Shown piece after piece: positions 45,578 to 63,176 of a stretch of 64,000 nt of DNA (within the stretch, counting starts at the first letter, position 1; each line of letters opens with the position of its first letter). The stretch is from Pseudomonas cavernae (GTDB taxonomy: Bacteria > Pseudomonadota > Gammaproteobacteria > Pseudomonadales > Pseudomonadaceae): positions 620,001-684,000 of the forward strand of contig NZ_CP032419.1 in assembly GCF_003595175.1 (NCBI RefSeq). Reading direction: 5' to 3'. The notes under the pieces are model-generated. The model was not told the origin of the DNA and made no database searches. It was given only the letters and a program-made list of their open reading frames with translations. A program made the translations under genes and the position numbers.

Positions 45578-48500
45578 TTACCAGGTATCCACGAACGGCC
45601 GCTTCTTGCCCTCGCGCGGCGCCGGCTTCGGTGCCGCGTTGAGGCCGCGCAGCAGCCAAGCGCGGGTGTCCTGCGGGTCGATCACCGCGTCGATCTCGAG
45701 GAAGCTGGCCATGTTGATCGCCTTGCCGCTGTCGTAGGCCTTGGCCACCAGCTTGTCGAACAGCGCCTGGCGCGCCTCGGGTGTTGCCTGGGCCGCCAGC
45801 TCCTTAGCGAAGCCCAGGCGTACCGCGCCTTCCAGACCCATGGCGCCGAACTCGGCGCTCGGCCAGGCGATGGTGAACAACGGCGAGTGGAAGCTGCCGG
45901 CGGCCATGGCCTGGGCGCCGAGGCCGTAGCCCTTGCGCAGCACCACGGTGAAGAACGGCACGCTGAGGCTGGCGGCGGCGACGAACATGCGCGACACATG
46001 GCGCACCGTGGCCTGCTTCTCCGCCTCCGGGCCGACCATGAAGCCGGGCGTATCGCACAGCGAAATCATCGGCAGGTCGAAGGCGTCGCACAGCTGCATG
46101 AAACGCGCTGCTTTATCTCCGGCCAGCGCGTCGATGGCGCCGCCCAGGTGCGCCGGGTTGTTGGCGATCAGGCCGAACGGCTGACCCTCGATGCGCACCA
46201 GCGCGGTGATCAGCCCCGGGGCGAACTGGCGGCGCAGCTCCAGCACGCTGCCGCTGTCGGCGAGCTGCTCGATCACCCGGCGAATGTCGTAGACGCGCAG
46301 GCGGTTCTCCGGAATGGCGTGGCGCAGTTCGCGCTGGTCGACGCACTGCCAGTCGCGCAGCGGGCCCTGGAAGTAGGATAGGTACTGCTGGGCGACGCGC
46401 ACCGCCTCGGCTTCGTCCTCGACGATCACGTCTATCACCCCGTTGGGCCCCTGGACGCCGACCGGGCCGACCTGCTCGGGCGTGTAGCTGCCCAGACCTC
46501 CACCTTCGATCATCGCCGGGCCGGCCATGCCGAGGGTGGCGTCCTGGGCGGCGATGATCACGTCGCAGCAACCGAGCAGCGCGGCGTTGCCGGCGAAGCA
46601 GCGCCCGGAGACCACGCCGACCAGCGGCACCAGGCCGGACAGCTTGGCCATGCCGACGAAGGTGTGGCAGTCCAGCCCGGCGACGCCGACGAAATCGCTG
46701 TCGCCCGGCCGCCCGCCGCCGCCCTCGGCGAACAGCACCAGCGGCGTGCGCCACTGCTCGGCGAGCTGCAGCATGCGGTCGGTCTTCTTGTGATTCATCA
46801 TCCCCTGGGTGCCGGCGAACACCGTGTAGTCGTAGGCGATCGCCATACAGCGAGCTGCTTGCTGTCCAAACTGCGCGGCATTGACCGTGCCGAGGCCGGC
46901 GACCAGGCCGTCGGCCGGGCTCTGCTCGATCAGCTCCTCCAGCGAGCTGCGCCGGCGCCGCGCGGCCAGGGCCAGGGCGCCGTATTCGATAAAGCTGTTC
47001 TCATCCAACAAGTCCGCCAGATTCTCTCGAACCGTGCGCTGGCCGCTCTTGCGTCGCCGCGCCACCGCCTGTGGGCGGCGTTCGTCGGTCAGCACGGCGT
47101 GGCGCTCCAGCACCTCGGCGAGATCGGCGCGGATCTGCGCGAGGTCGCGGCTCTCTTCATCCTCCTGGCAGGTTCCTTCAACGTCGGCCGGCTCGATAAA
47201 CAGCAGCGCCTGGCCTTCGTTCAGCGCCTGGCCCGGCTGCGCGGCGAGCACGCGGACGATGCCGCTGGTGCTGGCCTTGACCACGAACTCCATCTTCATC
47301 GCCTCCAGCACCGCGACCGGCTGGCCGAGCGCCACCGCGTCGCCCTCGCCGACCTCCAGGGCGACCAGCACCCCGGTGCTCGGCGTGGCCAGCGGCAGGC
47401 AGCCGGGCGGCACGTCGAGGATGGCCTGCGCGGTGTCGGCGCTGGCGGCGGCACCGGCGAAATACAGGTGCGGATGGGCCTGTTCCTGCGGCGCCAGCAG
47501 CTGCTCCAGCTGGCGTTCGACGAAGCGGGTATCGACCCGGTAGCTCGCCACCTCGGGCAGGCGCAGCAGGTTCTGCAGCAGGTGCAGGTTGCTCGCCACG
47601 CCCTCCAGGCGGAACTCGCACAGCGCCCGGTAGGCGCGGCGCAGGGCGCTCGGGTAGTCGGCGGACTGGGCGATCAGCTTGGCCAGCAGCGAGTCGTAGC
47701 TGGGGCTGACTGGGTAGCCGGCGTAGCCGTAGCCGTCGACGCGCAGGCCGGGGCCGGACGGCGGCTCGTAGGCGCCGAGGGTGCCGGCGGCCGGGCGAGT
47801 GCTGCCGTCGGCGTTCATGCTTTCCAGATTGATGCGCAGCTGCACCGCAAAGCCCTGGGTGGCTGGTGGCTGTGCCAGGCCCAATTCGGCCAGCGACTGG
47901 CCGGCGGCCAGGCGCAGTTGCGTATGCAGCAGGTCGACGCCGGTGACCTGCTCGGTGACGGTGTGCTCGACCTGGATGCGCGGGTTGGCCTCCATGAAAT
48001 AGAAACGCTCGCCCTCAAGCAGGAACTCGAAGGTGCCCAGACCTTGGTAGCCGACTTCGCCGGCCAGGCGCAGGGCGGCGTCGATCAGATGGTCGCGCAG
48101 CGCGGGGTCGAGGCCCGGGCTGGGGGCGATTTCCACCAGTTTCTGGTGGCGGCGCTGCAGGCTGCAGTCGCGCTCCCACAGGTGGCTGACCGCGCCGCTG
48201 CCGTCGCCGAGCACCTGCACCTCGATATGCCGGGCGTTTTCCACCAGCTGCTCGGCGTACAGCGCGCCGTTGCCGAACGCCGTCTGCGCCTCGGACTGGC
48301 AGCGCGTGTAGGCCTCATCCAGTTCGGTATCGCTGTGCACCGCGCGCATGCCGCGGCCGCCGCCGCCGGCCAGGGCCTTGAGCATGAGCGCGCCGTGTGC
48401 GGCGAGGAAGGCGCGCGCCTCTTCCAGGCTCGCCGCGCGGTTGATCCCGGCCACCAGCGGCACCCCGCAGCGCTCGGCCAAGTCGCGGGCCCGGGCCTTG

Positions 48501-48844
48501 TCGCCGAACAGCTCGAGCACCTCAGGCGCCGGACCGATGAAGCGCAGGCCGGCCGCCGCGCAACGGCGGGCGAACTCGGCGTTCTCGGCGAGGAAACCGT
48601 AGCCGGGGTGGATCGCGTCGCAGCCTTGCTCGCGGGCGATGGCGATCAGCTGGTCCATGTCCAGATAGGCCGGCACGCCGCGGCCCTTGAGCGCCACGGC
48701 TTGGTCGGTCTTGCGAACGTGCAGGGAGGCGGCGTCGTCCTCGGCGTAGACGGCGATGCTGCGGATATCCAGCTCGGCGCAGGCGCGGGCGATGCGGATG
48801 GCGATCTCGCCACGGTTGGCGATCAGCAGGGCGGAGAAGGGCAT
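45578..48844 (-). CDS. Single-chain biotin-dependent acyl-CoA carboxylase
   Basis: A 1088-residue multidomain enzyme. Biotin carboxylase is at 1-450 (I-A-N-R-G-E-I-A-I-R-I, G-G-G-G-R-G-M-R, E-A-N-P-R-I-Q-V-E-H-T-V-T-E). The carrier domain has E-A-M-K-M with biotinyl Lys517. The carboxyltransferase is from about 590 to the end. This one-polypeptide BC-BCCP-CT order matches the long-chain acyl-CoA carboxylase type described from mycobacteria and some pseudomonads. The substrate acyl length cannot be read. It sits with an epoxide-hydrolase-like gene in an inserted segment, suggesting a catabolic or lipid-modifying role. Confidence 0.88.
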   Translation of the reverse strand: MPFSALLIANRGEIAIRIARACAELDIRSIAVYAEDDAASLHVRKTDQAVALKGRGVPAYLDMDQLIAIAREQGCDAIHPGYGFLAENAEFARRCAAAGLRFIGPAPEVLELFGDKARARDLAERCGVPLVAGINRAASLEEARAFLAAHGALMLKALAGGGGRGMRAVHSDTELDEAYTRCQSEAQTAFGNGALYAEQLVENARHIEVQVLGDGSGAVSHLWERDCSLQRRHQKLVEIAPSPGLDPALRDHLIDAALRLAGEVGYQGLGTFEFLLEGERFYFMEANPRIQVEHTVTEQVTGVDLLHTQLRLAAGQSLAELGLAQPPATQGFAVQLRINLESMNADGSTRPAAGTLGAYEPPSGPGLRVDGYGYAGYPVSPSYDSLLAKLIAQSADYPSALRRAYRALCEFRLEGVASNLHLLQNLLRLPEVASYRVDTRFVERQLEQLLAPQEQAHPHLYFAGAAASADTAQAILDVPPGCLPLATPSTGVLVALEVGEGDAVALGQPVAVLEAMKMEFVVKASTSGIVRVLAAQPGQALNEGQALLFIEPADVEGTCQEDEESRDLAQIRADLAEVLERHAVLTDERRPQAVARRRKSGQRTVRENLADLLDENSFIEYGALALAARRRRSSLEELIEQSPADGLVAGLGTVNAAQFGQQAARCMAIAYDYTVFAGTQGMMNHKKTDRMLQLAEQWRTPLVLFAEGGGGRPGDSDFVGVAGLDCHTFVGMAKLSGLVPLVGVVSGRCFAGNAALLGCCDVIIAAQDATLGMAGPAMIEGGGLGSYTPEQVGPVGVQGPNGVIDVIVEDEAEAVRVAQQYLSYFQGPLRDWQCVDQRELRHAIPENRLRVYDIRRVIEQLADSGSVLELRRQFAPGLITALVRIEGQPFGLIANNPAHLGGAIDALAGDKAARFMQLCDAFDLPMISLCDTPGFMVGPEAEKQATVRHVSRMFVAAASLSVPFFTVVLRKGYGLGAQAMAAGSFHSPLFTIAWPSAEFGAMGLEGAVRLGFAKELAAQATPEARQALFDKLVAKAYDSGKAINMASFLEIDAVIDPQDTRAWLLRGLNAAPKPAPREGKKRPFVDTW

Positions 48845-50140: not shown

Positions 50141-50176
50141 AATAAAAAACGCCGGGCATGCCCGGCGTTTTTTATT
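50141..50176. terminator. Perfect palindromic bidirectional terminator
   Basis: All 36 bases form one perfect palindrome: AATAAAAAACGCCGGGCA and its exact reverse complement. It serves the convergent PAP2 gene and ispA. Confidence 0.92.
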
Positions 50177-52085: not shown

Positions 52086-52592
52086 ATGAACTCCAGCAAG
52101 GAAAATACAGGCAAAGCCTGGTATCTAGTCCAGTGCAAGGCACGCCAGGACGAGCGCGCAGAAGAAAATCTGCTGCGCCAGGGGTACGTCTGCTATCGCC
52201 CCAAGCTCAAGCGCGAACGCCTGTTGCGCAGACATAGGCAAATGGTCGAGGAGTCCCTTTTTCCGGGTTACCTGTTCGTCCAGCTCAGCCAGCAGGATGG
52301 CTGGGGGCCGCTGCGCTCCACCCGTGGCGTGACCCGCATCGTCAGCTTCGGCAGTCAGCCGGTGGCCGTCGACGATTACCTGATTGAGCAGCTCCAGCAG
52401 CACGAGCATGAACCCTATACGCAAGAGCTTCTTACCGCAGGTGAAAAGGTCCGCATCAATGAAGGGCCTTTCGCCGAGTTGGAGGGGATATTTCTGGCAA
52501 TGGATGGAAATAAGCGTGTGGTGCTCCTGCTGAATTTCCTGCAACGCGAGCAAAAAATCCTCATGCCAGTGACTGGCATCAGCAAAATCTGA
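52086..52592 (+). CDS. rfaH: RfaH-type transcription antiterminator (NusG paralogue)
   Basis: A 168-residue protein with a NusG-N domain (W-Y-L-V-Q-C-K-A-R-Q-D, L-F-P-G-Y-L-F-V, S-T-R-G-V-T-R-I-V-S-F-G) and a short KOW-type C-terminal domain with V-R-I-N-E-G-P-F-A-E-L-E-G-I-F. This matches E. coli RfaH in length and landmarks rather than NusG. RfaH binds the ops sequence in paused elongation complexes and suppresses termination in long polysaccharide operons. An ops element lies 341 bases downstream, making a self-contained regulator-target pair. Confidence 0.9.
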   Translation: MNSSKENTGKAWYLVQCKARQDERAEENLLRQGYVCYRPKLKRERLLRRHRQMVEESLFPGYLFVQLSQQDGWGPLRSTRGVTRIVSFGSQPVAVDDYLIEQLQQHEHEPYTQELLTAGEKVRINEGPFAELEGIFLAMDGNKRVVLLLNFLQREQKILMPVTGISKI

Positions 52593-52900
52593 AGGAGGCG
52601 CCGCCTCCGTGCCGACAATGCTCCAATCATCGGGGCGGGGTTCGACTCGCTAGAGTGAATCTGTATACTCGCTCGCAGAATGAACAGGGGGGCGCGACTC
52701 AAGTCCAGAGCGCGTCATCCAAACCCACAAAAAAAGCAGAAAAATCAATAGGGTGAGAGCAAGGAGGCATCCGGCCAGCGCAACATAGCACCCAAAGGGC
52801 TGGATACAAGCCTGGGGCATTAGCATTTCATCATTAGCTCAATTTGCCTTCTTCACAGCGTGCTGCGCGGTTAAGTTTTGCCTGTAAAAACAATTAGTAC

Positions 52901-52944
52901 CATCGTGCTCGGGAAGCTACGGAAAATCCTGGGGCGGTAGCGTG
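52901..52944 (+). promoter_or_regulatory. JUMPstart element with ops site
   Basis: CATCGTGCTCGGGAAGCTAC is followed by GGAAAATCCTGG and ends GGCGGTAGCGTG (52933-52944), matching the E. coli ops core GGCGGTAGnnTG exactly. The upstream part fits the longer JUMPstart consensus seen before polysaccharide operons. Confidence 0.88.
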
Positions 52945-53040
52945 TCAGGACCCAGGCTTTTACCCTGACGGGCAAAGTTGTAGCAGGACATGCGCCGATG
53001 AGTCAGCCAGGCGAAACTGTTGATAGCAGTCGGGTTGCCC
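52944..53040 (+). ncRNA. Structured leader RNA candidate
   Basis: Directly after ops, GTCAGG (52944-52949) can pair with CCTGAC (52964-52969). GGGCAA (52970-52975) can pair with TTGCCC (53035-53040), enclosing hairpins CGCC/GGCG (52993-52996 with 53010-53013) and ACTG/CAGT (53016-53019 with 53027-53030). The pairing is read by eye. No known riboswitch class was matched. The rest of the 775-base gap to 53368 shows no recognisable gene. Confidence 0.4.
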
Positions 53041-53367
53041 AGGAGTCCGCAGGGTGATTTATCGACGAGTAACTGTTAAGGGACTAACAGCATGTCAGTT
53101 TTCATAGCCTCCCCCATGGTTCCGGGCATGGAGCCAGTTCTTGTGGATTTGCACTGGCTTTGCCGTGCGACAGAGTTCGCTGCGCCGGTGCGCAAGCAAT
53201 CAGGCTGCGCAATGCCATGTGCGCGGAATCTGGGAGAGGTGGGGCCGCGGGCTGGATGCAAGCATTTGCAAGACACGAATAACAACCTTTGCAATAACCA
53301 AAACTGCCCACTGCTCACCGCAGAAAAGGGACAGGATTCCATGCAACATCTAACGAGGACGTTTGAT

Positions 53368-53934
53368 ATGCGTAAAGCCCTTTCCAGCCTCACTCTGGCG
53401 GTGGCATTGGCCTCCGGCCAGGCCTTCGCTGACCAAGCCACCCTGGCAGCCCTGCAGACGGCAGGTGTAGCTCTGACCGAAGCCCAGACCCAAGCTGTAG
53501 CCGCCGCGGAAGGTGATGCTCTGGCTGAAGCAATCGCCGGCATCGTTGCCGCCAACCCTGAGGCTGCTGCCAGCATCGTTGCCGCTGCCGTGGCCGCGGC
53601 GCCGGCTCAGGCCGCTGCCATCACCGCGGCTGCCGTAAGCGCGGCGCCGGCTCAAGCCGCCGCTATCACCGCTGCTGCGGTAAGCGCGGCTCCGGCTCAG
53701 GCTGCCGCCATCACTTCGGCTGCAGTAAGCGCAGCTCCGGCTCAGGCCGCAGCCATCACCGACGCGGCGGTAAGTGCAGCCCCGGCTCAGGCCGGCGCGA
53801 TCAACGCCGCAGCGAACAATGCTGTCGGCAACACCGCAGTTGCCTCGGCTGCTACCAGCTCCGGCAACACCACCGCCTCCTCCAGCGTGCCAAGCAGCAG
53901 CGGTGGCGGCGGCGGTTCTGCCAGCCCGAACTAA
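53368..53934 (+). CDS. Secreted alanine-rich tandem-repeat protein, first gene of the EPS operon
   Basis: A 188-residue protein from the ATG at 53368 (GAGGA 8 bases upstream). The frame extends back to an ATG at 53092, but only the internal start gives a clean signal peptide (K-A-L-S-S-L-T-L-A-V-A-L-A-S-G-Q-A-F-A). The mature protein has five 15-residue repeats, residues 77-151, of consensus A-A-P-A-Q-A-A-A-I-T-A-A-A-V-S, then a Ser/Gly-rich tail with G-G-G-G-G. No family recognised. The repeats should form an amphipathic helix or solenoid. Its position suggests a matrix or export-associated protein made in large amounts, because a hairpin terminator follows directly. Confidence 0.75.
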   Translation: MRKALSSLTLAVALASGQAFADQATLAALQTAGVALTEAQTQAVAAAEGDALAEAIAGIVAANPEAAASIVAAAVAAAPAQAAAITAAAVSAAPAQAAAITAAAVSAAPAQAAAITSAAVSAAPAQAAAITDAAVSAAPAQAGAINAAANNAVGNTAVASAATSSGNTTASSSVPSSSGGGGGSASPN

Positions 53935-54039: not shown

Positions 54040-55203
54040 ATGAGTATGAAATTCACCGCAAGTTCACTGGCTGCCGCCGTTTCGGCTGCGCTTTGTGCCA
54101 ATGCCTGGGCCATCGAGCCGCAAAGCGTCAAGCTGTCCGACGGCCTGACCTTCACGCCCACCCTGGAAGTGAGTGAGCGTTACGACGACAACTTCCGAGC
54201 TGTCGAAGATGGCGAGGAATCCTCCTGGATTACCGGCATCACCCCGACCTTCGTACTCGGTGCCCTGGGCCGCAAGAGTGAGTACGCGCTGAGCTACTCG
54301 GCCGCCAGTGACATTTTTCACTCGAGCCATGACGACGACAACACGGACCACCATCTGAACGCAGATGCCGGGTTTGAATTCGATGCGCGCAACCGGCTGA
54401 AGCTGAACGCCGGCTACGACAAGGTTGAAGAGACCGCCTCGCTAGACCAGAACGTCGAAAACGACAAATACACCACCAGCAACCTGGGCGGTGTGTACAC
54501 CTATGGCGCCGAGAGCTCCCGCGCGCAGGTCGATTTCGGCGCCAACTACGAGGAGCTGCGTTACCAGAACAGCGACCACCTCAATGCCGACAAAGAGCGC
54601 GACACCACCGCCCTCAGCAGCACCTTCTACTACCGAGTGGCGCCCAAGACCCGCGCCTTGGTCGAAGCCCGCCACACCGAGTACGACTACGTCTCCAACG
54701 ACCGTCTCAACAGCAACAACATCGCTCTGCTCGGCGGTCTGACCTGGGACGCAACTGCCAAGACCAGCGGTACCGTCAAGATCGGTGGCGAGAAGAAGCG
54801 TTTCGATGACTCCAGCATCGACGACAAGAGCGGTTCGCTGTGGGAAGTGGGCGCCAGCTGGAAGCCGCGCACTTACTCCACCTTCAACCTGAAGACGCGC
54901 CGTGCGCTCGACGAAGGTGACAATGGTGCCTCCTCCATCCAGTCCCAGAGCTCCACCCTGAGCTGGGAGCACGAGTGGCTCGAGCGCCTGACTTCCGACG
55001 TCAGCTACACCTACTCTGACCAGGAGTACCAGGACATCGATCGCGACGACAAGATCGACACCTTCGGCCTCGGTCTGACCTATGAAATGCGCCGCTGGCT
55101 GGATGTGGGTGTCGGTTACAAGTATTCCGAAAACGACTCCAGCGCACCTAACGAAAGCTACCAACGCAACATCTACTCGCTCAGCTTCACCGCCAGCCTG
55201 TAA
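54040..55203 (+). CDS. Outer-membrane beta-barrel of EPS export (BBP2/VpsM-like)
   Basis: A 387-residue secreted protein. The start is ATG 54040 with a signal peptide ending A-N-A-W-A. Alternating beta-strands with many D/Y/N turns follow (V-S-E-R-Y-D-D-N-F-R) and the C-terminus is S-L-S-F-T-A-S-L. This is the 'putative beta-barrel porin 2' type found in polysaccharide clusters, as VpsM in Vibrio cholerae. It probably forms the outer-membrane pore or an accessory to it. Confidence 0.82.
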   Translation: MSMKFTASSLAAAVSAALCANAWAIEPQSVKLSDGLTFTPTLEVSERYDDNFRAVEDGEESSWITGITPTFVLGALGRKSEYALSYSAASDIFHSSHDDDNTDHHLNADAGFEFDARNRLKLNAGYDKVEETASLDQNVENDKYTTSNLGGVYTYGAESSRAQVDFGANYEELRYQNSDHLNADKERDTTALSSTFYYRVAPKTRALVEARHTEYDYVSNDRLNSNNIALLGGLTWDATAKTSGTVKIGGEKKRFDDSSIDDKSGSLWEVGASWKPRTYSTFNLKTRRALDEGDNGASSIQSQSSTLSWEHEWLERLTSDVSYTYSDQEYQDIDRDDKIDTFGLGLTYEMRRWLDVGVGYKYSENDSSAPNESYQRNIYSLSFTASL

Positions 55204-55280: not shown

Positions 55281-55820
55281 ATGGTCATTCGCATTTTTTT
55301 CAGCCTGATCCTTGGCATGCTGCTGATCAACAGCAGCGTCGTGCAGGCGGAGGGCAACTCCCAGTACAAACTGGCTTCGGGTGATGTCATCCGCATCAAT
55401 GTCTTCGGTGAACAGGATCTCAGCTTCGAAGAGCTGCGCCTGACCGATGCCGGCACCTTCTCCTACCCCTTCATTGGTGAAGTCCAGGCCAAAGGTAAGA
55501 CCGCTGCCGAGATCGAACAGATGATCATCGACAAGCTCAAGGGCGATTACCTGGTCGACCCGCGCGTATCGGTCAGCGTCCTGCAATACCGCGAATTCTT
55601 CATCAGCGGCGAGGTGAAAGAGCCCGGCGGCTATCCCTTCCAGCCCGGCCTGACCCTGCGGCGTGCCGTTGCTCTGGCTGGCGGCCTGACCGAGCGCGCA
55701 TCGGAGGGCCGGATCACCATCATCCGCGACCACGATGCCAGCCGCACCCCGGAGGCAGCCTCCCTCGACACCCAGGTCATGCCCGGCGATACCATCACGA
55801 TTGACCAGGGTTTTTTCTAA
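55281..55820 (+). CDS. Polysaccharide export protein (Wza family, short VpsN-like form)
   Basis: A 179-residue periplasmic protein with a signal peptide (cleaved near V-V-Q-A). It has the Poly_export domain Y-K-L-A-S-G-D-V-I-R-I-N-V-F-G-E and a SLBB domain (F-I-S-G-E-V-K-E-P-G-G-Y-P-F). It lacks the lipobox cysteine and the C-terminal helix of Wza, as do short forms that cooperate with a separate outer-membrane barrel. The preceding gene is a candidate partner. Confidence 0.88.
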   Translation: MVIRIFFSLILGMLLINSSVVQAEGNSQYKLASGDVIRINVFGEQDLSFEELRLTDAGTFSYPFIGEVQAKGKTAAEIEQMIIDKLKGDYLVDPRVSVSVLQYREFFISGEVKEPGGYPFQPGLTLRRAVALAGGLTERASEGRITIIRDHDASRTPEAASLDTQVMPGDTITIDQGFF

Positions 55821-55922: not shown

Positions 55923-58163
55923 ATGGAAAGTAATACCCATATCCTCGAGCGCAACCTGATCGCCCAGCGCCAGGAGGAGGATGACGACGAGATCGACCTG
56001 CTCAAGCTGTGGCAAACCATTTGGCACCGCAAGTGGAGCATCCTCACCCTGGTGCTGGTGGTCAGCATGGTCGCGATTCTCGCGGTTTTCGCCATCACGC
56101 CCATCTACCGCGCCGCCGCCACCCTGATGATCGAGGAGAAAGCCGCCAAGGTGGTGTCCATCGAACAGGTCTACGGCCTAGAAGGGACGGGCAGCGAATA
56201 CCTGCAAACCCAGTTCGAACTGCTCAAGTCGCGCTCCCTCGCCGAGCGCGTGGTACGTCAGTTGAACCTGACCACCCACCCCGAGTTCGACCCGCGCCAG
56301 CAGCCCGAACCGCTGATCGACATCAGGGGCCTGTTGGCCAATTTCGACTTCAACAAGGTCGTGCCGGCAACCCTGCCCGGTGACCTGGAGGAGGGGATCG
56401 ACCCCACCGAAGCGGAAATCTTCGATACCGTCACCAAGGACTTGATGGAACGCATCAGCATCGAGCCGCAAGGCAAGAGCCAACTGGTCAAGGTGCAGGT
56501 GGACATGGCCGATGCGCGCATGGCCGCGCTCGCCGCCAATGCCCTGGCCAATGGCTTCATCGAAAGCCAGCTGGAAGCGACCATGGACATGTCCATGACC
56601 GCCACCAACTGGATGAATAGCCGTCTAGGTGAGCTGCGCACCAAGTTGAAAGATGCAGAAGACCGCCTGCAGGCCTTCCGCGAAGCGGAAAACCTGGTGG
56701 ATGTGGACGGCGTGGCCACCATCAGCGCCGCCGAGCTGACCCTCACCGGTGAGCGCATGATCGATGCGCGCCGCCAGCGCGCCGAAGCCGAAAGCCAGTA
56801 CCGCCAGGTCCAGGCCATGCGCGGCGGTGGCTGGGAGCGCCTGGCCAGCATTCCGGCCGTACTGGGGCATCCGCTGATCCAGCAGTTCAAGGCGGAAGAA
56901 GCCAAGGCCAGGGCCAAGGTCGACGAGCTGTCGCGCCGCTATGGTGCGCGTCACCCGGCCATGGATGCCGCCCGCTCCGATCTGAGCGCCGGCTCCGCCA
57001 GCCTGCGCGGTCAGGTCGAGCAGGTGGTTGCCGGTATCGAGCGCAACTATCAGCTGGCCGCCGCCAACGAAAATTCCCTGCAGGCCTCATTCAACACCAA
57101 CAAGTCGCAGATCCAGGACATCTCGCGCAAGGAGTTCAAACTGCGTGAACTGCAGCGTGAAGTGGAAGGCAACCGCGCGCTCTACGACACCTTCATGACC
57201 CGACTGAAGGAAACCGCCGCCACCTCCGACCTGGACAGCGCCAATGCCCGGGTTGTGGATCAGGCCGTGGTTCCGTCTGAGCCCATCAAACCGAAGAAGT
57301 CGCTGATCGTCGCGATCGCCGCCCTGCTGGCCGGCTTCATCGGTGTGGGCCTGACCCTGCTGCTGGACGCGCTGAACAACACCTTCAAGAGCACCGAACA
57401 GGTGGAAAGCCGCCTGAACATTCCGGTGCTTGGCATCCTGCCGTTGATGAAAAACTTGGAACGCAGCGACCTTGCGCGGATGTTCACGATCGACAAGGAC
57501 AAGAGCTTCTCCGAGTCGATCCGCACCATTCGTACAGGCGTTGTGCTTTCGGGCATCGATCACCCGCACAAGGTCATGGTCATCACCTCCTCCATCCCAG
57601 GCGAAGGCAAGAGTACCGTCTCGGTCAACCTGGCCTTCGCCCTCGGCCAGATGGAAAGGGTATTGCTGATCGACGCGGACCTGCGTCGCCCGACGCTGGC
57701 CAAAAGCTTCGAGTTCCCGGTTGGTACTCCTGGTCTGGCCAACTTGATCGCCGGCACCGCCACGCTGGAGGAATGCATCAAGCATGTCGACGGCATTGAC
57801 ATGATCAGCGCCGGCACCGTGCCGCCAAACCCGCTGGAACTGCTATCGTCGCCACGCTTCGCCAAGGCCATCGAAGTGCTCAAGAGCAAATACCAGCGCG
57901 TCATCATCGACTCGCCACCGACCCAAGCGGTGAGCGACGCGGTGGTTCTGTCGACCTTTGCCAACTCGCTGATCTACGTGATCAAGTCCGACTCCACGCA
58001 CATCCCGTTGGTGGAGAAGGGCGTCGGCCAGTTGCTGCAGAACAATGCCCCAATCAACGGCATCGTGCTCAACCAGGTCGATATCAAGAAGGCCAAGAAG
58101 TACGGCTACAGCTACGGCGGTTACTACGACTACTACGGCTACAGCAACGCCAAGCAAGCCTAA
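55923..58163 (+). CDS. Polysaccharide co-polymerase/tyrosine autokinase (Wzc family)
   Basis: A 746-residue inner-membrane protein. A Wzz domain with helix 1 (about 38-60) and a long coiled-coil periplasmic region comes first, helix 2 is near 460-484, then a cytoplasmic BY-kinase domain. Walker A is I-P-G-E-G-K-S-T (558-565), Walker A' L-L-I-D-A-D-L-R-R-P (Asp584, Asp586), Walker B V-I-I-D-S-P-P (Asp663). The C-terminal tail holds eight tyrosines between 727 and 740, the autophosphorylation cluster. It controls chain length and export with the Wza-like protein and the phosphatase encoded next. Confidence 0.93.
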   Translation: MESNTHILERNLIAQRQEEDDDEIDLLKLWQTIWHRKWSILTLVLVVSMVAILAVFAITPIYRAAATLMIEEKAAKVVSIEQVYGLEGTGSEYLQTQFELLKSRSLAERVVRQLNLTTHPEFDPRQQPEPLIDIRGLLANFDFNKVVPATLPGDLEEGIDPTEAEIFDTVTKDLMERISIEPQGKSQLVKVQVDMADARMAALAANALANGFIESQLEATMDMSMTATNWMNSRLGELRTKLKDAEDRLQAFREAENLVDVDGVATISAAELTLTGERMIDARRQRAEAESQYRQVQAMRGGGWERLASIPAVLGHPLIQQFKAEEAKARAKVDELSRRYGARHPAMDAARSDLSAGSASLRGQVEQVVAGIERNYQLAAANENSLQASFNTNKSQIQDISRKEFKLRELQREVEGNRALYDTFMTRLKETAATSDLDSANARVVDQAVVPSEPIKPKKSLIVAIAALLAGFIGVGLTLLLDALNNTFKSTEQVESRLNIPVLGILPLMKNLERSDLARMFTIDKDKSFSESIRTIRTGVVLSGIDHPHKVMVITSSIPGEGKSTVSVNLAFALGQMERVLLIDADLRRPTLAKSFEFPVGTPGLANLIAGTATLEECIKHVDGIDMISAGTVPPNPLELLSSPRFAKAIEVLKSKYQRVIIDSPPTQAVSDAVVLSTFANSLIYVIKSDSTHIPLVEKGVGQLLQNNAPINGIVLNQVDIKKAKKYGYSYGGYYDYYGYSNAKQA

Positions 58164-58523: not shown

Positions 58524-59249
58524 ATGATCGACCTGCACAACCACCTGCTCCCCGGCATCGACGACGGGGCCCCCAACCTCGAAGCTTCGCTGGCACTGGC
58601 GCGCGTGGCCGTGCAGGACGGCATCACCCATCTGGTCTGCACCCCGCACATCCATCCCGGCCGTTACGACAACAGCCCCGCCAGCATCCAGGCAGCGCTG
58701 GCCCTGTTTGTCGCCGCCCTGAAAGAGCAGGGCATCCCCCTGCAGGTGGCGGCCGCAGCGGAAGTGCGCTTCGGCATGGAGCTGATGGTCGGCGTCAGCC
58801 AGGGGGCCATTCCTTTCCTGGGCGAATGGCAGGGCAAGAAGGTCCTGCTGCTCGAATTCCCCCATGGCGAAATACCCTTCGGCGCCGAGCGCCTGATTAG
58901 CTGGTTGCTGCAACGCAACATCATTCCGATGATTGCTCACCCGGAACGCAACAAAGGCATCATGCGCACACCGTCCAGGCTCAAGCCCTTCCTTGAGCAG
59001 GGTTGCCTGCTGCAGGTCACGGCCGCTTCCGTGGCCGGCCGCTTCGGTCCAGCCGCCCAGGACGTTGCCCATGCACTGCTGGAGCAAGGCGTGGTCAGCA
59101 TACTCGCCAGCGATGCGCACAACCTGCAGCACCGCCCGCCCTTGCTCAGCGAGGGCCTGCAACAGGCCGCTCGCATAGTCGGCGATGCCAAGGCCGAAGC
59201 CCTGGTCAAACACACTCCCTGGGAAATCGCCCAGAGCCATTTCGCATGA
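58524..59249 (+). CDS. PHP-type protein-tyrosine phosphatase (CpsB/YwqE-like)
   Basis: A 241-residue metal-dependent phosphatase from the ATG at 58524. Metal-binding motifs are D-L-H-N-H-L-L-P-G-I-D-D-G, C-T-P-H-I-H-P-G, A-H-P-E-R-N and S-D-A-H. This class, common in Gram-positives, replaces the low-molecular-weight Wzb phosphatase and removes phosphate from the Wzc-type tyrosine tail. It overlaps the next gene by ATGA. No strong ribosome-binding site is seen, and a repeat lies just upstream. Confidence 0.9.
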   Translation: MIDLHNHLLPGIDDGAPNLEASLALARVAVQDGITHLVCTPHIHPGRYDNSPASIQAALALFVAALKEQGIPLQVAAAAEVRFGMELMVGVSQGAIPFLGEWQGKKVLLLEFPHGEIPFGAERLISWLLQRNIIPMIAHPERNKGIMRTPSRLKPFLEQGCLLQVTAASVAGRFGPAAQDVAHALLEQGVVSILASDAHNLQHRPPLLSEGLQQAARIVGDAKAEALVKHTPWEIAQSHFA

Positions 59250-60001
59250 ACCCCAGCCTATCCATCGACCGGCTCAGCCGCCGGCAGCAGCGCTCGCCCG
59301 CGGGCGAGAAAAATGTGAGTGCCATCACACAAAAAGTGTCTGCCGTGCTGGTGTTGCTGTTGGCCTTGGTCCTGTTATTTGCAGGGGGCCGCATGATCGT
59401 GGCCGGCATCGCCAGCTACCAGGCTGAAGCCTTTCTAGCCGCGTGGGAAAAGGCCGGTAACGAGCCCGAAGCCCGTGCCTGGCAAATCGCCCACGATGCG
59501 GCGCAACGTGCCATCGGCTTGTACCCGGTTGCCAATGGCGATTACCTCGACCGCCTCGGGCGTATCCACAGCTGGCAGCAATTCCGCCAACCCTATGCCG
59601 CCCCGACTGCGGAGCTCTCGCGGCGTGCCGCATTAGCCGCCTACCGGGCTGCGGTAGTTGCCCGCCCGGCCTGGCCCTACACCTGGGCGCGTCTGGCCCA
59701 CAGCAAGCTGTACCTGCAGGAGTTCGATGGCGAGTTCGACCAGGCCCTGGCCCAGGCTTTCCAGCTGGGCCCCTGGCGCATCGGGGTGAACCGCGAACTG
59801 GCGGAAGTCGGCTTCAGTGCCTGGCCGCATCTGGATGAGAGCCAGCGTCAGGCCACCCTCGAATCGGCGCGGCGCAGCGTGGCCTACGGGCCAGCAGAAG
59901 CCCAGCGCCTGCTCAAGGTCGCTCAGCACACCGGCATGCTCCAGATGCTTTGCGACAGCCTGAACAGCGAACTGAAAAGCACCCGCAAACTATGCCTCTG
60001 A
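59246..60001 (+). CDS. VpsP-like membrane-anchored protein
   Basis: A 251-residue protein with one N-terminal membrane helix (V-L-V-L-L-L-A-L-V-L-L-F-A-G-G) and a periplasmic helical part with TPR-like features, including R-P-A-W-P-Y-T-W-A-R-L-A. Genes of this type stand beside vpsO-like kinases in Vibrio and other EPS clusters. No biochemical role is established as far as I know. It is coupled to the phosphatase by a 4-base overlap. Confidence 0.65.
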   Translation: MNPSLSIDRLSRRQQRSPAGEKNVSAITQKVSAVLVLLLALVLLFAGGRMIVAGIASYQAEAFLAAWEKAGNEPEARAWQIAHDAAQRAIGLYPVANGDYLDRLGRIHSWQQFRQPYAAPTAELSRRAALAAYRAAVVARPAWPYTWARLAHSKLYLQEFDGEFDQALAQAFQLGPWRIGVNRELAEVGFSAWPHLDESQRQATLESARRSVAYGPAEAQRLLKVAQHTGMLQMLCDSLNSELKSTRKLCL

Positions 60002-60205: not shown

Positions 60206-60372
60206 GACCACATTGCCTCAATCTCTACAGGTAACTGTTTGTGCCACAGAACCACCCAGCAACCCCAGCGGCCCATAGAGCACCTCACAGGTCGAATAGC
60301 CCGTTCAGCAAAGGCATAGCAACAGCGCGAGGCCGGGACGCCAGCGTCAATCACCCACGCAGGGACATCAAC

Positions 60373-61764
60373 TTGATCGGCAAACGCGACACGAGCATTC
60401 CCGGCGGGCGAGGCCTGACCTTCTGGGGGCAGTGGCTGGCAGCAGCCACCCTGCTCATTCTCCTGCTCTGCACACTGGCCATGCTGAAGACCGGGGAGAT
60501 AGGCACCCAATACCGCGTCCTGGCGGCCTTTGCCTTGTTCGCTTCGGTACCCGTTTACTCATTGATGCGGGTCTATCACAAGCAGCATGGCTACCTGGTT
60601 GGCCTCGGCCGTTTGCTCGGTGGCTGGCTGATCCTGCTGTCCATGCTCACAGTTGCAGCTTTCGTTACCAAGACCAGCGAACTCTTCTCCCGTGAAGTGA
60701 CCCTCACCTGGGGCGTGCTCGGCTTCGCCCTGCAAGTCGGCCTTTACGTGCCGCTGCATGGCGTCTCCAGGCGCTACCACCAGAAGCTGCAAGCCGCACG
60801 CACCTCGCTGATCATCGGCACCGGCGAGCTGGCCATGGACCTGGCGGACAAGCTCGTGCGGCAGAAGAGCGAGCCCATGATGGGCCTGGTGGCAGCGAAC
60901 GACCACCTGCAACCGGATAACCTCCTGTACCCGATCATCGGCAGCCTCGCCCATCTGCGTGACCTGATCGCGGCCCATCGCATCCGCCGCCTCTATATAG
61001 CCCTGCCCCTGACCGAGGCCGAGCAGATCGAAGGCCTGTATATCGACCTGCTTGACTCCAGCGTCGACGTGGTGTGGATTCCCGACTTGCGCAGCCTGAT
61101 GCTGCTCAACCACTCGGTTGCTGAGATCGAAGGCATGCCGGCCATTCACCTCAATGAAAGCCCGCTGACCGCCTACCCCACTGCAGCCCTGACTAAGGCG
61201 TTGATGGACCGCGCGGTCGCCCTGCTGGCCATCCTCGCCCTCAGCCCCGTGCTGCTAGCCACCGCCATCGCCGTGAAGTATTCATCGCCCGGCCCGATCC
61301 TGTTCAAGCAGAAACGCCACGGCTGGAACGGCAAGATCATCAAGGTGTGGAAGTTCCGCTCCATGCGCCTGCACGACGATAAACAAGTCAAGCAGGCCAG
61401 CCGCGAAGACCCGCGCATCACCCGTGTCGGCCGCTTTATCCGCCGCACCTCGATCGACGAGCTGCCGCAGCTGTTCAACGTCCTGCAGGGCCAAATGTCC
61501 CTGGTGGGTCCGCGCCCGCATGCCGTCGCCCACAACGACTATTACACCGGCAAGATCGACGCCTATATGGCCCGCCACCGGATCAAGCCCGGCATCACCG
61601 GCCTGGCACAGATCAGCGGCTGCCGTGGCGAAACCGAAACCCTCGACAAGATGGAGAAGCGCGTGGAACTCGACCTGGCCTACATCAACAACTGGTCGCT
61701 GTGGCTGGACATCAAGATCCTGATCAAGACGCCGTTTACCCTGCTGTCGAACGACATTTATTGA
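60373..61764 (+). CDS. Undecaprenyl-phosphate glycosyl-1-phosphate transferase (VpsL/WcaJ-like)
   Basis: A 463-residue initiating transferase. A TTG at 60373 with AGGGA 7 bases upstream gives the usual length. The longer frame from a GTG at 60241 overlaps repeat DNA and has no such site. Four or five N-terminal helices are followed by a nucleotide-binding-like domain and a C-terminal catalytic domain: K-V-W-K-F-R-S-M-R, R-R-T-S-I-D-E-L-P-Q-L-F-N-V-L and M-S-L-V-G-P-R-P-H. It loads the first sugar phosphate onto the lipid carrier. Confidence 0.9.
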   Translation: MIGKRDTSIPGGRGLTFWGQWLAAATLLILLLCTLAMLKTGEIGTQYRVLAAFALFASVPVYSLMRVYHKQHGYLVGLGRLLGGWLILLSMLTVAAFVTKTSELFSREVTLTWGVLGFALQVGLYVPLHGVSRRYHQKLQAARTSLIIGTGELAMDLADKLVRQKSEPMMGLVAANDHLQPDNLLYPIIGSLAHLRDLIAAHRIRRLYIALPLTEAEQIEGLYIDLLDSSVDVVWIPDLRSLMLLNHSVAEIEGMPAIHLNESPLTAYPTAALTKALMDRAVALLAILALSPVLLATAIAVKYSSPGPILFKQKRHGWNGKIIKVWKFRSMRLHDDKQVKQASREDPRITRVGRFIRRTSIDELPQLFNVLQGQMSLVGPRPHAVAHNDYYTGKIDAYMARHRIKPGITGLAQISGCRGETETLDKMEKRVELDLAYINNWSLWLDIKILIKTPFTLLSNDIY

Positions 61765-61862: not shown

Positions 61863-63176
61863 ATGTCCGAACACCAGGAAGCAAGCGTTGCTAAGTTCAA
61901 AAGCAAGGAAGCCATTATCGGCATCGTCGGCCTCGGCTACGTAGGCTTGCCGCTGATGTTGCGCTACAACGCCATCGGCTTTCGTGTACTGGGCATCGAC
62001 ATTGACGAGAGCAAGGTGACCAGGCTCAACGCCGGCCAGAGCTATATCGAGCACATCCCGGCTGACAAGATTGCAGCGGCCCGTGACAGTGGGTTCATAG
62101 CCACCACCGACTTCAGCCGCGTCAGCGAGTGCGATGCGCTGATTCTCTGTGTTCCGACTCCGCTCAATAAATACCGCGAGCCGGACATGAGCTTCGTGAT
62201 CAACACCACCGATGCGCTCAAACCCTATCTGCGCGCCGGTCAGATCGTTTCCCTGGAAAGCACCACCTACCCCGGCACCACCGAAGAAGAACTGTTACCG
62301 CGTGTACAGGAAGGCGGCCTGGTCGTTGGCGAGAGCATCTTCCTAGTCTACTCGCCGGAGCGCGAAGATCCGGGCAATCCCAACTTCGAAACCCGCACCA
62401 TTCCCAAAGTGATCGGCGGTCATACTCCGGCCTGCCTTGAAGTTGGCATTGCTTTGTACGGGCAGGCCATCGACAAGGTCGTAGCGGTCAGCTCGACCAA
62501 GGCAGCGGAAATGACCAAGCTGCTAGAGAACATCCACCGTGCAGTCAATATCGGCCTGGTCAACGAAATGAAAGTCGTTGCCGACCGCATGGGCATCGAT
62601 ATCTTCGAAGTGGTTGATGCCGCCGCCACCAAGCCGTTCGGTTTCACTGCCTACTATCCCGGCCCCGGCCTTGGTGGTCACTGCATCCCAATCGATCCTT
62701 TCTACCTGACCTGGAAAGCCCGCGAGTACGGTTTGCATACCCGCTTCATCGAACTGTCCGGTGAGGTCAACAAAGCCATGCCAGAGTACGTGCTCAGCAA
62801 GCTGATGGACGGCTTGAACAACAGTGGCAAGGCACTCAAAGGCAGCAAAGTCCTGGTGCTGGGCATTGCCTACAAGAAGAACGTCGACGACATGCGCGAA
62901 TCTCCCTCCGTGGAAATCATGGAACTGATCGAAGCCAAGGGCGGTATCGTCGCCTACAGTGACCCGCACGTACCGGTCTTCCCGAAAATGCGCGAGCACC
63001 ATTTCGAACTAAGTAGCCAAGCACTGAGCGCAGAAAACCTCGCCAACTTCGACGCGGTGGTGCTCGCCACCGACCACGACAAGTTCGACTACGAGCTGAT
63101 CAAGCAGCACGCTCGCTTGATCGTCGACAGCCGTGGCAAATACCGCGCTCCCGTCGAGCACATCATCAAAGCCTGA
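61863..63176 (+). CDS. wbpA: UDP-N-acetyl-D-glucosamine 6-dehydrogenase (WbpA type)
   Basis: A 437-residue UDP-sugar dehydrogenase. N-terminal Rossmann motif [11 protein letters not shown]. Catalytic cysteine in [11 protein letters not shown]. Conserved V-P-T-P-L-N and the C-terminal domain [15 protein letters not shown]. The WbpA assignment, UDP-GlcNAc to UDP-GlcNAcA, rests on overall resemblance and on wbpB following it. A UDP-GalNAc-acting homologue is possible. It provides an acidic sugar for the polymer. Confidence 0.88.

Follow-up and report, generated by a model that had tools for sequence, protein, structure and literature searches.

Genes and features at the locus

The window analysed here is the whole stretch of 64,000 nucleotides from Pseudomonas cavernae (contig NZ_CP032419.1, positions 620,001 to 684,000 of the forward strand), and all coordinates refer to it. 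Papers given by PMC number are cited for the part of their text that was available to us. The window contains an rfaH gene, an ops core within a JUMPstart element, a long leader and a run of exopolysaccharide (EPS) genes, all on the forward strand:

52086–52592, forward strand: rfaH, 168 amino acids (open reading frame; AlphaFold predicts a NusG-like N domain and a beta-barrel C domain)
52904–52944, forward strand: JUMPstart element, comprising a proposed pseudoknot and ops (Rfam RF01707 at 28.6 bits, below gathering; 71-row alignment)
52904–52907, forward strand: stem S1, 5′ arm, putative pseudoknot helix (covariation)
52910–52914, forward strand: stem S2, 5′ arm (covariation; Rfam JUMPstart stem)
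52918–52921, forward strand: stem S1, 3′ arm (covariation)
52927–52931, forward strand: stem S2, 3′ arm, 1 nt ahead of ops (covariation)
52933–52944, forward strand: ops core, the expected RfaH recruitment and pause site (exact match; conserved in relatives)
52945–53340, forward strand: remaining leader up to ATG 53341 of the Ala-rich reading frame (sequence)
53341–53934, forward strand: Ala-rich repeat protein with a signal-peptide-like start and no Pfam family (open reading frame, Pfam search)
54040–55203, forward strand: outer-membrane beta-barrel, BBP2_2 (Pfam)
55281–55820, forward strand: polysaccharide export protein, Poly_export/SLBB (Pfam)
55923–58163, forward strand: Wzz/Wzc chain-length determinant with tyrosine autokinase (Pfam, NCBIfam)
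58524–59249, forward strand: CpsB/CapC phosphatase, start set at the Pfam match (Pfam)
59003–60001, forward strand: VpsP-like protein, open reading frame as listed, true start unsure (NCBIfam below cut-off)
60331–61764, forward strand: WcaJ-type undecaprenyl-phosphate sugar transferase (Pfam, NCBIfam)
61863–63176, forward strand: nucleotide-sugar (NDP-sugar) dehydrogenase (Pfam, NCBIfam)

The EPS operon that the initial annotation had placed after ops is borne out by the families identified there (barrel, Poly_export/SLBB, Wzc-type kinase, CpsB, VpsP-like, WcaJ-type and dehydrogenase), and the cluster may extend beyond 63176. Its likening to vps-II is loosely supported, with a VpsP family match of 109.1 bits that is below the cut-off of 125. 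The leader from ops to ATG 53341 is about 400 nt long; an alternative in-frame ATG at 53092 would give an Ala-rich protein of 280 amino acids. Immediately before this ATG, at 53072–53094, there is a CTGTTAAGGGACTAACAG-like stretch that is a candidate ribosome-site element, and similar stretches are located past ops in L036, L054, L055 and L077.

The surroundings contain other features. Directly behind the rfaH stop codon is an inverted repeat (52594–52608, GGAGGC-N3-GCCTCC) without a T run on the forward strand. A promoter scan gave only a chance-level site. A GC-rich stem between A and T runs at 50144–50174, perhaps a two-way terminator, is matched by unrelated Rfam families below their gathering scores. 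On the reverse strand at 45578–48844 a reading frame of 1088 amino acids resembles, by its translation only, a fused biotin carboxylase, biotin carrier and carboxyltransferase.

The ops core and JUMPstart

The sequence GGCGGTAGCGTG at 52933–52944 is an exact ops core, lying 341 nt past rfaH, and no second exact copy occurs in the 4.95 Mb genome. The letters of ops prove nothing alone, because there are 56 sites within one mismatch genome-wide (one of them exact) compared to 69 for a reversed control, and the window itself contains 16 sites within two mismatches where 13.0 are expected. Letter-level significance was therefore discarded as evidence, and it is the position after rfaH, the JUMPstart context and the conservation in relatives that raise this site above chance.

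The Rfam JUMPstart model RF01707 matches 52904–52944 over all 38 of its positions, with a stem followed by the exact ops. The match scores 28.6 bits (E 0.0071) and does not reach the gathering score of 35, so we describe the element as working like JUMPstart and do not call it an Rfam member. With this proviso on the score, the canonical ops core in a JUMPstart-like sequence recorded by the initial annotation is confirmed: 52933–52944 is an exact ops core inside a full-length JUMPstart, ahead of an EPS gene cluster.

The RfaH protein

The gene at 52086–52592 encodes an RfaH-family protein and not NusG. The product scores 174.7 bits against the RfaH equivalog TIGR01955, above the cut-off of 144.5, and its closest solved structures are RfaH chains in E. 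coli complexes (E 1.7e-25). Identity as NusG was considered and rejected, with TIGR00922 (nusG) giving 55.3 bits against a cut-off of 135.7; the one-contig genome (4.95 Mb) contains a single NusG-family gene besides rfaH. Grouping with NusG in a phylogeny had been named as the outcome that would speak against an RfaH-like gene, and in both a careful and a quick tree the protein sits among RfaHs. The E. coli RfaH itself falls within the first of the two groups described below on a very long branch, a position from which we draw nothing.

The residues that contact ops in E. coli RfaH give the same picture. The window protein has equivalents of K10, Q13, R16, R23, T72 and R73, with H20 replaced by N. 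Among 85 tabulated relatives K10, Q13, R16 and R73 are kept in all 85, T72 in 81 and R23 in 76, and the ops-contacting residues are kept in both Pseudomonadaceae RfaH groups. The NusG of the same genome keeps only T72 of these six positions and has H in place of R16.

Conservation of rfaH and ops in the Pseudomonadaceae

A search with a profile of 38 relatives gave 186 confirmed rfaH loci, of which the best 80 were analysed. An ops core is found in 73 of these 80 loci (69 exact within the flanks, and the variants L038, L076, L079 and L108), so the ops core is conserved in homologous loci, and a JUMPstart-like stretch lies ahead of each aligned ops as judged by eye. The site is downstream of rfaH on the same strand in 50 loci, and on the opposite strand, 3–5 kb to the 5′ side, in the other 23. 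Two loci, L073 and L074, have two JUMPstart-ops sites behind one rfaH, 1.4 and 1.9 kb apart. Six of the seven remaining loci were searched genome-wide, the seventh (L062) being left out as its contig ends before the expected site; four of the six genomes have a JUMPstart-like ops elsewhere, and the ops pattern was not found in the other two RfaH-bearing genomes (G667 and G671).

The initial annotation had proposed that the antitermination module moves with this EPS cluster, and this holds for a part of the loci. Matches to the outer-membrane barrel, export protein and Wzc of the window follow ops in that order in 11 of the 80 loci, but many of the others have none of these matches past ops, and 23 have ops on the opposite strand. 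Clusters were compared solely by matches to the window's own proteins.

Across the family, RfaH was called present in a genome where TIGR01955 gave a best E-value under 1e-20 that was also far lower than the NusG one. By this measure 170 of 298 Pseudomonadaceae genomes are RfaH-positive, 166 of them above the curated TIGR01955 cut-off. The ops pattern TGGGGCGGTAGCGTG occurs in 87 of the 298 genomes, and the reversed control pattern in 2. RfaH and ops are found together in 85 genomes, RfaH only in 85, ops only in 2 and neither in 126 (Fisher p 1.3e-23, a value not to be taken literally because the genomes are related). Thus ops is present in 85 of 170 RfaH-positive and 2 of 128 RfaH-negative genomes; the ops-negative counts are too high because TGGGGCGGTAGCGTG misses variants such as L218 and the second RfaH group. 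In L218 a JUMPstart with CCTAGGGCGGTAGCGTG is a stem variant outside the family pattern. The two RfaH-negative genomes with the pattern are G188, which has a JUMPstart-like site (L270) in a fragmented assembly that is 92% complete, and G260, where the context (L157) is unlike JUMPstart by eye. The co-occurrence supports a pairing of protein and site and, together with the RfaH identity and the conservation of ops, the interpretation given in the initial annotation.

A stem touching ops is seen by a loose score in 104 of 110 sites read, of 112 listed. The figure of 85 of 87 genomes with a stem-touching ops is an upper one because this score passes chance-like sites (L149, L152 and L157), and even under a stricter form of it about 22% of shuffled type A stretches pass (16.1 of 73). 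At the level of the class, where sampling was sparse, 6 of 370 genomes matched the pattern, the genome studied here included, and the JUMPstart context was absent by eye in the other five. A search of phages for JUMPstart gave nothing of use.

A second group of RfaH proteins

In the trees 26 RfaH proteins of family genomes stand apart from the first group, with support of 92/96 in the careful analysis and 65 in the quick rerun, and we term the two sets only groups because of this difference in support. No ops was found within the 1.5-kb flanks of these 26 rfaH genes. Longer upstream stretches were fetched for 19 of the 26 genomes and for G160, 20 in all, and in 19 of the 20 the sequence GGCGGTAGC is present on the rfaH strand 7.8–8.8 kb upstream of rfaH; it was not found in L247, where 9.4 kb upstream were examined. 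The lack of TGGGGCGGTAGCGTG in 85 of the 170 RfaH-positive genomes is accounted for in these 19 of 20 stretches and in L218.

The tail of the second-group core is often ATT, TTT or TTG in place of GTG, and several genomes have two ops sites about 100 bp apart. In L239–L241 and L243–L246 two ops cores lie about 80–110 bp apart, and a GGATC-AGCA-GATTC-like stem often accompanies the downstream core. In L248 six open reading frames lie between ops and rfaH, five of them matching an aminotransferase, a polysaccharide flippase-type family, a glycosyltransferase, Wzc and WbqC. Since rfaH is thus the seventh gene, it would form a positive feedback loop if the run is one operon.

A proposed RNA pseudoknot ahead of ops

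In an alignment of 71 JUMPstarts two helices, S1 and S2, are interleaved and would therefore form an H-type pseudoknot; S2 is the stem of the RF01707 model. Paired cells amount to 93.6% for S1 and 97.5% for S2, with both sides changed in six of the nine pairs. On each of five measures none of 500 shuffles reached the observed covariation, a type of test that kinship between the sequences inflates, and slid registers gave 19–49% paired cells. The outer pair of S1 fails in 13 of 70 rows of this alignment.

S1 was also examined over a wider set of 160 distinct Pseudomonadaceae sites. Eighteen without an S2 of loop 11–18 were dropped, and among the remaining 142, which include close relatives and may contain a few chance sites, the mean best run of S1 was 3.65, compared to 3.12 with the 5′ arms re-dealt (0 of 500 as high). 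Reducing the set to 40 rows, one for each different 5′ arm, gave 3.40 against 2.75 (0 of 1000). Fourteen plasmid leaders of other gammaproteobacteria (13 from Enterobacterales and one from Aeromonas) were also fetched, and S1 was absent by eye in three of them (L187, L191 and L192). Ten leaders were aligned, leaving out two near-duplicates together with L191 and L192 and keeping L187. In these ten S1 is 85% and S2 96% paired, two S1 pairs show changes in both arms, between 0 and 7 of 500 shuffles score as high depending on the measure, and slid registers are 18–59% paired.

Several of L326–L337, together with L160, represent a third leader type with CTACAGGG or CTACACAGG, a short loop and CCTGG abutting ops, and without a clear S1 arm. 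Folding of single sequences was uninformative and was rejected as evidence: the thermodynamic fold of 52900–52944 does not outdo shuffled sequences (z −0.20, 77 of 200 of them being as good) and favours a different pairing that takes in ops.

Interleaved helices and compensatory changes, as expected of an H-type pseudoknot, are thus found by sequence comparison, and we hold with considerable confidence that the RNA structure in JUMPstart is real. A JUMPstart pseudoknot was not found in the literature searched, whose coverage of subscription journals was slight, and as far as this literature shows our comparison suggests that the pseudoknot with a covarying S1 is new.

Spacing between the stem and the ops pause

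In the complex paused at ops the RNA ends at U11 (PMC11001881). S2 ends at 52931, 1 nt before ops, so 12 nt separate it from the 3′ end of the paused RNA (T11 at 52943). This is inside the pause-hairpin range of 11–13 nt, a distance from hairpin to 3′ end that is common at NusG-suppressed pauses (PMC10268239).

Among 73 distinct stretches of type A, taken from the window and the 80 loci, a strong stem ends 0–3 nt before ops in 64, and the other nine have a 4-bp stem ending 2 nt before ops; shuffles gave a mean of 16.1 of 73 and at most 28. In type B, that of the second RfaH group, a stem touches ops in 23 of 24 distinct sites, compared to a shuffle mean of 5.4 and a largest value of 10, and the stem sequences are quite different. 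Chance ops-like sites have a stem in 11 of 39 against 11.4 when shuffled, although L160, which is included in the 39, may be real. To judge from the literature searched, these comparisons suggest that it is a new observation to find a stem abutting ops in both RfaH groups even though the stems themselves differ.

Predicted fold of the C-terminal domain

The best AlphaFold model of the window RfaH, built on a 38-row alignment, has a five-stranded beta C-terminal domain (CTD) with block pLDDT values of 67–87 from residue 111, and its top fold match is 8phk_P, the fully recruited RfaH on ops-paused polymerase. As a control we modelled Cedecea lapagei RfaH (P0224), which is 78% identical to E. coli RfaH, also with 38 rows, and obtained the autoinhibited alpha hairpin at low confidence, with helices at 120–131 and 135–146 and block pLDDT values of 36–62 there. 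The equivalents of E48 and R138, which lock the alpha state, are kept in the window RfaH, as they are across the RfaH models in PMC13015549. That study treats beta models as putative monomorphic RfaHs acting in cis, making up 3%, 22% or 40% depending on the data set.

Because the alignments differ in diversity (55–80% identity for the window, 75–87% for the control) and a single control was modelled, with the best of five models considered in each case, we regard it as about equally probable that the window RfaH is or is not monomorphic and non-fold-switching, yet paired with a perfect ops. Should the prediction hold, the combination of a beta CTD with a perfect ops is suggested to be new by the literature searched.

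Proposed mechanism and alternatives

In E. coli, RNA polymerase pauses at ops and RfaH attaches to the hairpin that ops forms in the non-template strand; further downstream it opposes pausing and Rho termination. At this locus it is very likely that RfaH acts on the EPS operon through ops, and it is likely that the whole forms a dedicated RfaH-ops antitermination unit for the EPS operon next to it, with the pseudoknot aiding the pause. Polymerase would initiate upstream of JUMPstart, read through it and pause once the transcript has reached T11 of ops, and the non-template ops DNA exposed at the pause would bind RfaH. RfaH would then remain on the polymerase, suppressing pausing and Rho termination along the long EPS operon, and would probably aid ribosome loading. 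In the cell the nascent JUMPstart RNA would fold into the H-type pseudoknot (S1 52904–52907/52918–52921; S2 52910–52914/52927–52931), S2 being completed as polymerase arrives at ops, so that the stem would lie at the exit channel, 12 nt behind the 3′ end of the transcript. There the stem would probably strengthen or time the pause until RfaH loads.

On balance, though by a narrow judgement, we favour pause stabilisation as the way in which the RNA structure acts. The effect of RNA hairpins that stabilise pauses is suppressed by RfaH but not by NusG (PMC6391919). In PMC11001881 the ops pause is described as distinct from hairpin pauses and the RfaH cycle as set by the ops and RfaH sequences alone; the exit-channel step goes further than this account and possibly conflicts with it, since on that account E. 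coli might do without the RNA part in vitro.

Such sufficiency of ops and RfaH in E. coli (PMC11001881) would also suit ordinary E. coli-type control, in which the part of JUMPstart ahead of ops owes its conservation to something else (a role as promoter or operator) and the arms pair only because they are palindromic DNA, and the unremarkable fold energy of 52900–52944 fits this too. We consider it unlikely, since the arms interleave in the manner of an RNA pseudoknot, unlike the usual operator, they covary, and the second RfaH group has a stem of another sequence at the same place. It is likewise improbable that the RNA fold serves the leader, blocking Rho loading or shaping ribosome entry, with nearness to ops mattering little: the stem ends 0–3 nt before ops across many stems, a spacing that a Rho or ribosome role does not need, even though a long leader of about 400 nt separates ops from ATG 53341 and RfaH-dependent ribosome recruitment has been described (PMC13015549). 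A chance ops beside a NusG paralogue acting through another site is hardly credible, for although an exact ops is unsurprising by its letters in this genome (56 sites against 69 in the control), ops is kept in 73 of the best 80 of 186 loci and RfaH and ops co-occur over 298 genomes.

The antitermination unit with a pause-aiding pseudoknot leads to a broader proposal, which we offer tentatively and think somewhat doubtful as a whole. The gammaproteobacterial RfaH signal would be bipartite, consisting of the ops DNA hairpin and an RNA pseudoknot or hairpin 11–13 nt behind the 3′ end, and its partner in the Pseudomonadaceae would be an RfaH that is constitutively beta and not autoinhibited, with its gene next to or within the operon on which it acts. 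Because the two-part signal would then work with a beta RfaH, ops recognition would have come before fold-switching or outlived it, and the protein would be a living intermediate between NusG and RfaH. If true, a natural beta-CTD RfaH with a perfect ops would make the evolutionary order, whether ops or autoinhibition came first, directly testable with environmental Pseudomonas genes.

Comparison with known systems

To our knowledge only the last 12 bp of JUMPstart, those of ops, have a mechanism, and a covarying pseudoknot at a fixed distance from the ops pause would give the rest of the element a testable role. JUMPstart goes back to a 1994 description of an element of 39 bp, listed among the references of PMC2864571. 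The JUMPstart RNA of Rfam RF01707 (Weinberg et al. 2010, PMC2864571) has S2 and ops in the same place as here; it is described there as a conserved stem-loop, to which our alignment adds the putative covarying pseudoknot helix S1. Pauses of the hisL type, stabilised by hairpins, share a stem 11–13 nt from the RNA 3′ end (PMC10268239), whereas here the stem is joined to the ops consensus pause and RfaH target.

The E. coli RfaH/ops/JUMPstart operons share with this locus RfaH, the exact ops 12-mer, a stem just ahead of ops and polysaccharide genes. They differ in that here rfaH adjoins its target, the genome has a single exact ops, the stem is of the CAGGA/TCCTG type in an element below the Rfam gathering value, and the CTD is predicted to be beta and not alpha. 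The putative monomorphic RfaH orthologues acting in cis (PMC13015549) have in common with it the AlphaFold beta CTD and an rfaH beside or within a long operon, but their recruitment is described as ops-independent, whereas a perfect ops and JUMPstart are retained here. The Shewanella CL7 RfaHs in putative EPS operons (PMC7593976) resemble the second Pseudomonadaceae group in having rfaH within a run of polysaccharide genes; in the second group an ops core with an abutting stem is found, and for the Shewanella proteins no mode of recruitment is given there.

The initial annotation had suggested that the pairing of RfaH and ops with such a cluster might be little described in a Pseudomonas-like genome. 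Published work already records RfaH genes within an EPS locus of Pseudomonas stutzeri and next to LPS clusters of Azotobacter (PMC5532660, PMC4465626), so that part of the claim falls away, but the word ops is absent from the available texts of both papers. RfaH/ops itself is a known kind of system, and it is the proposed pseudoknot and the combination of ops with a predicted beta CTD that are, as far as the literature searched shows, its new and testable parts.
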